Source: Nitrospirota bacterium (lineage in GTDB: Bacteria; Nitrospirota; Thermodesulfovibrionia; Thermodesulfovibrionales; UBA6898). From it: a stretch of 64,000 bases of DNA. Of this stretch, positions 51,190 through 54,421 are shown in pieces (position 1 is the stretch's first letter; each line of letters starts with the position of its first letter). Both the position numbers and the translations under genes were made by a program. Where the stretch lies: positions 1 through 64,000 of the forward strand of contig JAJXTV010000019.1 in the NCBI GenBank assembly GCA_021783515.1, given 5' to 3'. A model generated the notes under the pieces. It saw nothing but the letters and a program-made list of their open reading frames with translations. It was not told the DNA's origin and searched no databases.

Positions 51190-51960
51190 CTATTTCCTGT
51201 CGATCAGCGCCTCGATCGCCTTTGCGTCCCGATAGCCCGAAACGACCCTGCCGTCCGGCATCACAAGGGCCGGAGTGCCGGAGATGCCGAGCTTCTTGCC
51301 GAGTTTGAGGTCCTCGTCGATTACCTGCGTCTTGCATTTCGGCGCGGGCAGCGGCTTTTTCTCATAGGCCTCCTCGAGGAGCTTGAGGGATTTTTCGCAG
51401 ACGATTGTCTTGGCCTTTTCCGCGGAGCCTTTGTGGATCGGCAGCGGGAACATCTTGATGTAAAACGCGATGTCCTTTCTCTGAGCCACGACCTTCTTCA
51501 ACTCCTGATGGAGCTTTGCGCAGAACGGGCACTCGGGGTCGGTAAAGACGATGACCTTCTTTTTTGCGTTCCTGTCGCCCATCACGAGCGCGTCTCCCAT
51601 AGGTATCTGCGAGACGTTGACCCTGTTGAGGTCTTCTTCCCGCTCCCGGGTAAGGTTCTTTTTCCCTTTGATGTCGACGATCGAGCCGGAGATCAGATAC
51701 CGCTTGGTGATGTCGAGATAGACCGGCCCTTTTCTTCCGTTCGATTCGACATCGATTTCCCAAAGGGACTTCAGAGGGGTCATCCTGACGTCCATCACCT
51801 TTATCATGGGGGCGATCTCCTTCAGCAGCGCGGCCGCCTCCTCCTTTTTCAGCGTGTGACACTTCGCGCAGTTTTCACCCTTGTTGCTGAATCCGTAGGA
51901 AAGAGAAGCGGTGAAAAAAAGCAATGCCGTTACCATAATCACTATACTGCGGTGGCGCAT
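51190..51960 (-). CDS. DsbC-like thiol-disulfide protein with N-terminal CxxCH haem motif
   Basis: A 256-residue exported protein: signal peptide (about 1-23), a CAKCH motif (C31, C34, H35; DNA 51856-51870), a DsbC-type dimerisation-like region (about 60-115), and a thioredoxin-fold domain with active site CPFC (C144, C147) in FTDPECPFCAKLH, plus the cis-Pro loop SGTPALV. DsbC isomerases normally have no haem. CAKCH followed by TLKK resembles the start of a short c-type haem segment. The ATG at 51960 is fixed by GGGAGGTAATTTG. It may service multihaem cytochromes or be a redox-linked variant. Confidence 0.88.
   Translation of the reverse strand: MRHRSIVIMVTALLFFTASLSYGFSNKGENCAKCHTLKKEEAAALLKEIAPMIKVMDVRMTPLKSLWEIDVESNGRKGPVYLDITKRYLISGSIVDIKGKKNLTREREEDLNRVNVSQIPMGDALVMGDRNAKKKVIVFTDPECPFCAKLHQELKKVVAQRKDIAFYIKMFPLPIHKGSAEKAKTIVCEKSLKLLEEAYEKKPLPAPKCKTQVIDEDLKLGKKLGISGTPALVMPDGRVVSGYRDAKAIEALIDRK
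51856..51870 (-). other. c-type haem attachment motif in the DsbC-like protein
   Basis: Codons for C-A-K-C-H about eight residues after the predicted signal-peptide cleavage site. This is the canonical CxxCH form for covalent haem attachment, in an exported protein. Confidence 0.7.
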
Positions 51961-51995
51961 CAAATTACCTCCCAAAATTTCGTGGATGATTTGCG

Positions 51996-52703
51996 TTATC
52001 TGACATTCAGAAAGGGCTTCACGTCCTTCTGAAAGTCGAGACCCGAAAAGTATTCGCCGATCGCGGTCCGGTATTCGCCTATCGCCTTCATTGCCGCGGC
52101 TGCCAGGGCAAACCGCCGGGCCAGTCCCACCGTACCTCCGTTGGCCTTCAGCTCCCCGACGAACCCGGGGTACTGGGCCGGAGCGGTGAGGACCGCAATG
52201 CTGTGCCAGTTTTTTGCCGACGCCATCGTCATGGCCGGCCCGCCGATGTCGATGTTGACCCTTGCCGTCTCGGAAGTTGTTCCCCCTTTGGCGATTACCG
52301 AAGTAAAAGGATACAGGTTGCCGACGAAGACGTCGAAATATACGCCGGGGCCGCCGCCCATCGACGCGAGCGTCCGGTAAAGATACCCCTCGTGCGCCGG
52401 GTTCCCTCTTTCGGCGAGCAGTCCGGCGTGAATCTTCGGATGGAGCGTCTTGACGAGCCCCCCTTCCATCTCGGGGGCGCCGGTGAATTCTTCGACCGAG
52501 AGGTAGTTTTTGGAGGCATCCTTCCCGAGGATCTCGACGATCTTTTTGCCGGTGCCTCCGGTAGAGTAGAACTTCGCGTCTGGATTGACGTCGAGTATGC
52601 CCCTGACGAGGATGTCCAGCCCGTCCTTGTCGAAGACGCTCACCAGCACGTGGGAGGGCTTTATCAGGTCGACCACCTGGTAGATATTCTCTCTGATGCT
52701 CAT
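51996..52703 (-). CDS. Stand-alone IMP cyclohydrolase (PurH N-terminal domain)
   Basis: A 235-residue protein matching only the MGS-like inosinicase domain of PurH (SVFDKDGLDILVRGIL, YSTGGTGKKI, MEGGLVKTLHPKIHAGLL, NLYPF, NIDIGGPAMTMASAKN). It closes FAICAR to IMP, the last step of purine synthesis. Bifunctional PurH is about 510 residues. Here the frame stops normally at NVR with no AICAR transformylase domain downstream, so that activity must come from another gene. The start is ATG 52703 with GAGGGGAAATTG before it. Confidence 0.88.
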   Translation of the reverse strand: MSIRENIYQVVDLIKPSHVLVSVFDKDGLDILVRGILDVNPDAKFYSTGGTGKKIVEILGKDASKNYLSVEEFTGAPEMEGGLVKTLHPKIHAGLLAERGNPAHEGYLYRTLASMGGGPGVYFDVFVGNLYPFTSVIAKGGTTSETARVNIDIGGPAMTMASAKNWHSIAVLTAPAQYPGFVGELKANGGTVGLARRFALAAAAMKAIGEYRTAIGEYFSGLDFQKDVKPFLNVR

Positions 52704-52838
52704 CAATTTCCCCTCTTTCTTCTGTTATTTGCCCTGCAATTGCACAAATCCGATCGATCTGAGTCTCGCCCGATGAAAAACGGCCATGCCGTGGCCTCCG
52801 GGTCGGGCACAGTCAGCCGGACAATCGGGGGCCCGCTT

Positions 52839-53033
52839 TCAGGCCCTGTTGCAGGAGCGGCTTGATATCTTTTCCCAGGTCTTTTCGTCGATCTCGTCGA
52901 TGTAATCGGCTATGCCGAACCTCCTGCCGCAATCCATGCAGCGCAGAAAAACGCTGCGTCAGCCGAAGGACAGCTGCAGCGCGCCCCCGCATTGGCGGCA
53001 TTTCAGGCCCAGGTCATGGGTGCGATCCGACAT
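52839..53033 (-). CDS. Small dual-CXXC protein read through in-frame UGA: candidate selenoprotein
   Basis: From ATG 53033 the frame gives a 24-residue head with CRQC (12-15), a UGA (52959-52961), and then, in the same frame, RSVFLRCMDCGRRFG with a second CXXC (32-35) and an acidic tail to UGA at 52839; 64 residues with Sec at 25. Both halves look coding and the frame is intact, as in the known family of dual-CXXC small (seleno)proteins. Two hairpins can be drawn after the UGA: GCAGCG/CGCTGC directly, or a bulged 6-bp stem at +13 to +35 with a 10-nt loop having G second. No sel genes lie in this window. The alternative is a nonsense mutation. Confidence 0.5.
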
Positions 53034-53039
53034 GCCGGT

Positions 53040-53069
53040 ATTGTAGCGCATTCTGCGCTTTTTTGTGAA
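53040..53069 (-). promoter_or_regulatory. Candidate promoter of the dual-CXXC gene, with palindromic spacer
   Basis: On the minus strand TTCACA (53064-53069) and TACAAT (53040-53045) are 18 bp apart. The spacer contains the perfect palindrome GCGCA-GAA-TGCGC (53046-53058). The predicted start point is at or next to the ATG, implying a leaderless transcript. Confidence 0.4.
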
Positions 53070-53201: not shown

Positions 53202-53843
53202 ATGCGTATCGAAGAGATCGTCGTCGGGCAACTTGACGTAAACTGCTTCGTCGTCTCGGAAGAGACTTCATCGGCAGCGGTTGTCATCGACCCCGGCGAT
53301 GAAGGCGAGCGGATTGCCGGGCTTCTCGACGGCAAGGGGCTGACACCGCACTATTTCGTCTTCACTCACGCTCACTATGATCATGTCTGCGCGGCGGCCG
53401 AGCTGAAAGCCCGGTACGGCGGCCGTATTGTGATGCACGAAGACGAGAAGGAAACCTATAGGATGACGAAGGAGCTCTGCATCTCCTGGGGATTCGGCGA
53501 AGAGGACTTTCCGCCGGCCGATATGATCGTCAGGGACGGCGACGAGGTAGCACTCGGCGGGCTGGCGTTCAGAGTCATCCATACTCCCGGTCACACCTCC
53601 GGCGGCATCTGCCTGTACGGGGGCGGGGTCTTGTTCACCGGCGATACTCTGTTTAAGGGGTCGGCGGGAAGGACCGACCTGCACGGCGGCGACAGGAATA
53701 TGCTGCTGACTTCCCTCCGGAAGCTTGCTTCCCTGCCGCCGGATACGACGGTCCTTTGCGGTCACGGAGACAAAACCACGATTGCAGAGGAACTGAAACA
53801 TAATCCTTTCCTGGGAGGCGGACGGTTCAGGATGATGCCGTGA
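53202..53843 (+). CDS. Metallo-beta-lactamase-fold hydrolase (glyoxalase II-like)
   Basis: A 213-residue MBL-fold hydrolase. The di-metal motif is FTHAHYDHVCAAAEL (HxHxDH), with later ligands in IHTPGHTSGGICL, FTGDTLF and VLCGHGDKT. It lacks the glyoxalase II C-terminal domain, so it is a short hydrolase acting on a thioester or similar. The ATG at 53202 (family start MRIEEIVVGQLDVNCF) is chosen over the longer frame from 53142. It overlaps the next gene (GTGA). Confidence 0.9.
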   Translation: MRIEEIVVGQLDVNCFVVSEETSSAAVVIDPGDEGERIAGLLDGKGLTPHYFVFTHAHYDHVCAAAELKARYGGRIVMHEDEKETYRMTKELCISWGFGEEDFPPADMIVRDGDEVALGGLAFRVIHTPGHTSGGICLYGGGVLFTGDTLFKGSAGRTDLHGGDRNMLLTSLRKLASLPPDTTVLCGHGDKTTIAEELKHNPFLGGGRFRMMP

Positions 53844-54421
53844 AAGGAAGACAGGCCGTCCTTGAAGTCATTCTTCGTCAGGTCGAAGAGGTGGTGGGCG
53901 CCTCCGGCTCCGGCCTGCGGGAACTCAGAACGCTCGCAAGGGAAACGGCCGATGCGGTTGAGGCGATAAGTCCCGGGATAGAGAGGCATACGGCGGCTGT
54001 CTGTCCCGGCTGTCAGCAGGTATGCTGTGCAAACCGGCATTGCTATCACGAATATGCGGACATCGTCTACCTCTGTTCGCTCGGGGAACGGCCGCCCGCA
54101 TACCGGGAAGGGGCCGTGGATACGGACCCGTGTCAATTCCTGGGAGAAAAGGGGTGTCTGCTGAGGCGCTCCCGCAGGCCGCACCGCTGTAACTGGTTTT
54201 TCTGTACCCCCCTCCTCGAACATGTCCTGGAATCTTCCGCCCGCGACTATCGGGTCCTGATTGCCGCGCTCGGGGAGATCAACGGGAAGCGGCGCGCACT
54301 CCTCCATGCGTTCGGGGCCGCCATGCGGGCGCGGGGGAGAGACCCCGGTGACCTGCAACGCTTTTCGGATGAAATTTTTTTCAGATATGAAAAAGGGAGG
54401 GACAAATTTGATATACTGTGA
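53840..54421 (+). CDS. YkgJ-type cysteine-cluster protein
   Basis: A 193-residue protein with the cysteine pattern of YkgJ/CxxxCxxCC proteins: CPGCQQVCCANRHCYHEY, then CQFLGEKGCLL and CNWFFCTPL. These presumably bind zinc or an iron-sulfur cluster. GTG start overlapping the previous stop. The catalytic role of the family is unknown. Confidence 0.75.
   Translation: MKGRQAVLEVILRQVEEVVGASGSGLRELRTLARETADAVEAISPGIERHTAAVCPGCQQVCCANRHCYHEYADIVYLCSLGERPPAYREGAVDTDPCQFLGEKGCLLRRSRRPHRCNWFFCTPLLEHVLESSARDYRVLIAALGEINGKRRALLHAFGAAMRARGRDPGDLQRFSDEIFFRYEKGRDKFDIL

Follow-up and report, generated by a model that had tools for sequence, protein, structure and literature searches.

Known families of dual-CXXC selenoproteins

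Small proteins with two CXXC motifs and a selenocysteine (Sec) or cysteine residue between them are grouped in the NCBIfam family NF041197, "dual CXXC motif small (seleno)protein". A review of 2026 (PMC13188914) gives the family under the name OS_HP3, a hypothetical protein known from work on the deltaproteobacterial symbiont that lives in Olavius algarvensis. An earlier review also lists it, without a function (PMC9312934), and a deep-Sep paper reports having missed the dual-CXXC family in Desulfosarcina widdelii (PMC12013277). The FmdB-type CxxC_CxxC proteins (TIGR02605) are similar in that they are small, possess two knuckles and include Sec forms, which are given as UxxU in PMC13188914. 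In these proteins, however, Sec takes the place of a CXXC cysteine, whereas the family considered here retains all four knuckle cysteines and carries Sec as a fifth residue.

The gene examined in this study is located in a window of 64,000 nucleotides, which is the whole stretch of DNA analysed (contig JAJXTV010000019.1 of a Nitrospirota bacterium, assembly GCA_021783515.1). Its product is similar to NF041197/OS_HP3 in length, in the presence of two CXXC motifs and in the position of Sec between them, and no feature excludes its membership. The family is already named, and the window gene is a Nitrospirota addition to it. A conserved SECIS element, a leaderless promoter and linkage to cysteine-cluster genes are not mentioned for OS_HP3 in the accessible text of PMC13188914 and PMC9312934.

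Gene, product and promoter

The following features were located at the selenoprotein gene:

52839–53033, minus strand: gene for a dual CXXC motif small selenoprotein (NF041197/OS_HP3), recognised by translation with UGA as Sec, by the NCBIfam match and by homologues
52959–52961, minus strand: UGA codon for Sec25; of 70 distinct homologues, 64 have UGA at the aligned site and six have TGT or TGC
53040–53045, minus strand: –10 box TACAAT, 6 nt before the ATG, located by sequence
53064–53069, minus strand: –35 box TTCACA, 18 nt from the –10 box, located by sequence

Read on the minus strand from 53033 to 52839 with UGA as Sec, the gene starts at ATG and encodes 64 residues, MSDRTHDLGLKCRQCGGALQLSFG-U25-RSVFLRCMDCGRRFGIADYIDEIDEKTWEKISSRSCNRA. 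Exactly one internal UGA is present, at codon 25 (52961–52959) between CRQC and CMDC, and a second UGA, a real stop, closes the frame. The original prediction had given this interrupted 64-codon frame with exact coordinates and had left its strand, minus, unstated. Translation of the plus strand of 52839–53033 yields no sensible protein and was rejected. A standard gene caller terminates the frame at UGA25. The family is therefore easily missed by annotation, a blind spot that this locus illustrates.

The product matched NF041197 with 63 bits (cut-off 40, E = 2e-17), and the alignment spanned profile positions 1–52 of 53. No Pfam match to the selenoprotein was found above the cut-off, and TIGR02605 was absent among its NCBIfam matches. 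Residues C12, C15, U25, C32 and C35 were invariant in the homologue alignment, which gives two CXXC motifs with Sec or Cys between them, as NF041197 requires. The portion following the UGA had been described as protein-like on sequence appearance; this is borne out by the NF041197 match and by the retention of post-UGA residues in 25 of 27 genomes of the same taxonomic family.

A promoter of leaderless type had also been proposed, and most of the 25 same-family loci show this arrangement: TANAAT is located about 5 to 8 nt ahead of the start, with TTCACA or TTCAAA upstream. The natural reading, which we infer from the sequence, is a leaderless mRNA.

Selenocysteine decoding machinery

A search for selA, selB, selC and selD had been suggested as a check on the gene, and all four were found in the genome. 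The profile scores, all above the respective cut-offs, were 598.5 bits for selA, 372.7 for selB and 346.4 for selD. The tRNA-Sec gene (selC) scored 67.6 bits, above the cut-off (Rfam; ARAGORN agrees), and has the anticodon TCA. The selD gene of this genome (L018:1471–2448, plus strand) contains an in-frame UGA within ASCAGUAAK, where SelD usually carries Sec. SelD of this genome is therefore a selenoprotein too, and its UGA is an internal positive control for the recoding of UGA in this organism.

Distribution and exchange of Sec for Cys

Among the 27 genomes of the same family, 25 contain the gene, 24 of them with one UGA at the site and one without a UGA. In the phylum as a whole, it was detected in 152 of 396 genomes, nearly always with exactly one UGA, and a selA match was obtained in 177. 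Relatives of the gene come from Nitrospirota and from deltaproteobacterial sulfate reducers (Desulfosarcina, Desulfobotulus, Desulfovibrio, Desulfatitalea). The gene and selA occur together in 141 of the 396 genomes, the gene alone in 11, selA alone in 35, and neither in 209; these counts set aside the fragmentary selA of genome G263, and shared ancestry inflates their significance. This selenoprotein is thus a nearly core gene of selenium-using Nitrospirota, being present in most of those sampled.

Whether homologues carry Cys or Sec at position 25 was another check that had been proposed. All six sense forms carry Cys, all others have UGA, and no other residue occurs at this site among the 70 distinct homologues. 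No selA match was obtained in G008 and G261, two of the genomes with a Cys form, and neither selB nor tRNA-Sec was found in them above the cut-off. In G263, also with a Cys form (L048 and L070; contigs C13 and C97), selA is weak and split into three pieces, selB fragments lie on one contig, and tRNA-Sec is still present. The Sec machinery of this organism is apparently decaying, with the selenoprotein already coded with Cys. The remaining three Cys forms come from genomes that still contain selA. The UGA-containing gene occurs without a detectable selA in some draft genomes, such as G025, G166 and G359. Among the selA-less genomes with a UGA form, selB was identified in G232 and G335, and tRNA-Sec in G025 and G166; in G359, searches for selA, selB and tRNA-Sec gave nothing above the cut-off. 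Gaps in draft assemblies are the likely cause of the missing selA genes.

SECIS element

The bSECIS criteria in PMC13188914 comprise an apical loop of 3–9 nt, an upper stem of 4–16 bp, a G in the first two loop positions, and a loop located 16–37 nt after the UGA. One hairpin of the window gene agrees with this model:

52926–52942, minus strand: bSECIS core hairpin GCUGCA-UGGAU-UGCGGC, the best admissible hairpin in 52 of 64 homologues

Its helix is formed by GCUGCA (52942–52937) and UGCGGC (52931–52926), with 6 bp and the 5-nt loop UGGAU 22 nt after the UGA; the whole hairpin extends from 17 to 33 nt after that codon. The 52 Sec homologues share a common register, GCUGCA-UGGAN-UGCGGC, with the loop 22–23 nt after the UGA. 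Each of the six pairs is formed in 58 to 64 of the 64 Sec homologues, and paired double changes are seen occasionally, as in L089 (U-A for C-G).

Since the helix codons also encode conserved residues, a within-gene codon control was used. The ratio of TGC to TGT codons in the 64 Sec genes is 123:5 in knuckle 2, which lies in the stem, versus 86:42 in knuckle 1 (Fisher P about 1e-9). Counted gene by gene, the bias has this direction in 27 genes and the opposite one in none. Among the Cys-form genes, knuckle 2 shows a ratio of only 6:6. The third positions of four stem codons are C in 95–98% of C/T cases, versus about 60% elsewhere. On this codon evidence, silent sites of the SECIS stem are under selection in Sec forms. 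When the window gene is considered by itself, 20% of its synonymously shuffled versions fold no worse than the native sequence (z –0.77), so a single-sequence predictor could not settle its SECIS; it is the relatives as a set, not independent of one another, that make the case for the element.

Two hairpins had been noted just after the UGA in the original prediction. The second (+13 to +35) is real and was placed about right, although the 10-nt loop assigned to it is not that of the conserved hairpin, which has the 5-nt loop UGGAU. The first (+1 to +17) was rejected as a SECIS, being too near the UGA and not conserved among relatives.

When contigs were scanned with a SECIS DNA pattern, 77 of the 111 matches were family members; the element is conserved enough for members to be found from the DNA pattern alone. 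Matches outside the family included several Streptomyces loci (L114, L125, L127, L166, L186 and others), which share, in the frame of the match, the conserved stretch RPIN.RCMVCGNVIGTRRRSQPLM across several species.

Reading of the internal UGA

Termination of the frame at UGA25 by a standard caller, together with the use of UGA as the terminal stop, would agree with an ordinary stop codon that leaves a 24-residue peptide, or with a decayed pseudogene whose downstream half is untranslated. The comparative sequence data already refute this, and we regard it as extremely improbable: conservation over 150 genomes extends beyond the UGA to LRCMDCG, Y44, E47, W53, R59 and R63, the UGA itself is kept with Cys as the only sense form, and the silent sites of the downstream hairpin are selected. 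Insertion of a residue other than Sec, either Trp by a change in the code or another amino acid by SelB-independent read-through, would also produce the full-length protein, as any read-through would; nothing specific speaks for it. The genome uses UGA as a stop, in this gene too, and possesses a tRNA-Sec with the anticodon TCA, the sense substitute is always Cys, and the spacing of the SECIS from the UGA agrees with the published bSECIS range. The probability of such an insertion is therefore close to nil.

The original prediction of a likely selenoprotein is thus strengthened by the presence of the Sec genes, by the Cys residue in all sense homologues and by a conserved bSECIS hairpin at the published spacing. 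Of the two observations named beforehand as refuting it, a genome lacking selB/selC and close homologues with a sense codon unrelated to Cys or Sec, neither was made. The protein is almost certainly a genuine Sec-containing dual-CXXC small selenoprotein, and this identity combined with Sec decoding of UGA25 is, judged from sequence comparison, highly probable.

Conserved residues and predicted fold

Besides the four knuckle cysteines and Sec/Cys25, Y44 is invariant, and E47, W53, R59 and R63 are nearly so. The residue after Sec is Arg or Lys in 73 of 77 family members. The C-terminal motif R-x-C-D/N-R-A/V is strongly conserved.

An AlphaFold2 model built with 33 sequences (mean pLDDT 68) contains strands at 18–23 and 28–32, a short strand at 38–40 and a helix at 50–58. 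The turn 24–27 between the first two strands holds Sec25. A Foldseek search with this low-confidence model retrieved mainly zinc ribbons (polymerases, topoisomerase I, ATCase); the matches were weak, all with E above 0.3 and none under 0.001. The zinc ribbons of RPB9/RPC10, TopoI and aIF2-beta likewise display two CXXC knuckles around a beta-hairpin, a likeness of fold only (E > 0.3). To our knowledge, none of these contains Sec. The model suggests that the scaffold is probably a zinc ribbon.

Cysteine-cluster proteins in the gene neighbourhood

Two families of cysteine-cluster proteins, A and B, were recognised around the selenoprotein genes; the window contains a member of the first:

53840–54421, plus strand: family A cysteine-cluster protein (CxxCxxxCC-type), divergent, a possible partner; 24 of 119 loci have this family close to the selenoprotein gene

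In 22 of these 24 loci, family A is located upstream of the selenoprotein gene. The window's genome has one copy, and its protein gave no Pfam or NCBIfam match. Family B (CxxCxxCC-like) lies directly downstream on the same strand, at –37 to +78 nt, in 28 of the 119 loci, and one or both families are present at 40. A weak resemblance to PF03692, a putative zinc- or iron-chelating domain, was detected in five of the six family B members tested. Family B was identified in 63 of the 396 genomes, 59 of which also possess the selenoprotein. Because the window's own genome lacks family B, it is not an obligatory or universal partner. The recurrent tight pairing with small CxxCxxCC-like proteins is new here and offers a first testable lead to the role of the selenoprotein.

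Possible function

On the comparative evidence, SelB and tRNA-Sec decode UGA25 with the aid of the hairpin 17–33 nt downstream. SECIS elements and SelB pair in a species-specific manner. The two CXXC knuckles most likely hold one metal ion in a predicted zinc-ribbon fold, and Sec25, placed by the model at the tip of the beta-hairpin, would be an exposed selenolate of low pKa beside Arg or Lys. The protein may then exchange thiols and selenols or pass on soft metals in the cytosol, acting upon or together with a partner, for instance a CxxCxxCC-type protein. This role with a cysteine-cluster partner is suggested by the gene neighbourhood and is tentative. A more speculative and rather unlikely proposal is a two-component system, so far undescribed, made up of the selenoprotein and the CxxCxxCC-like protein encoded directly downstream; if true, a zinc ribbon would present a hairpin-tip selenolate to the partner, whose metal or Fe-S centre would thereby be loaded, removed or protected.

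The two CXXC knuckles together with Sec, the zinc-ribbon-like model and the putative zinc- or iron-chelating (PF03692-like) neighbours would also suit a metal or metalloid sensor or buffer rather than a redox enzyme, with Sec25 as a fifth soft ligand or as a binder of Se, Hg or As. The model, however, puts Sec in the hairpin turn, apparently at the end opposite to the knuckles, and metal-stress genes are not among the recognisable recurring neighbours; this function is possible, with the balance against it. An intramolecular selenenylsulfide between Sec25 and the C-terminal Cys61, close to the view taken in the original prediction, draws on the strongly conserved R-x-C-D/N-R-A/V motif and on the occurrence of Cys61 in 60 of 64 Sec forms. 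In various other Sec forms, this residue is replaced by Ser, Ala, Gly, Met or Val, and model confidence is lowest in the segment 60–64. Since Cys61 is common but not invariant, it was rejected as an obligatory partner, and a Sec25–Cys61 bond is weakened as the core mechanism; we consider this pair doubtful.

Other neighbouring genes

The other flanking genes, including purH, ribosomal-protein genes and arginine-biosynthesis genes (the last two groups named by reading their sequences), vary by clade and look incidental; functional hints from them were rejected. The window contains, at 51190–51975 on the minus strand, a gene for a DsbC-like thioredoxin-fold protein (DsbC_N and Thioredoxin_2), whose N-terminal CxxCH is a possible haem-binding site. 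A related gene is located downstream of the selenoprotein gene in eight loci. The gene at 51996–52706 (minus strand) encodes a stand-alone N-terminal PurH (IMP cyclohydrolase), in which most of the AICAR transformylase domain is missing. In 19 loci, the selenoprotein gene is followed by a homologue of this gene in the same orientation.
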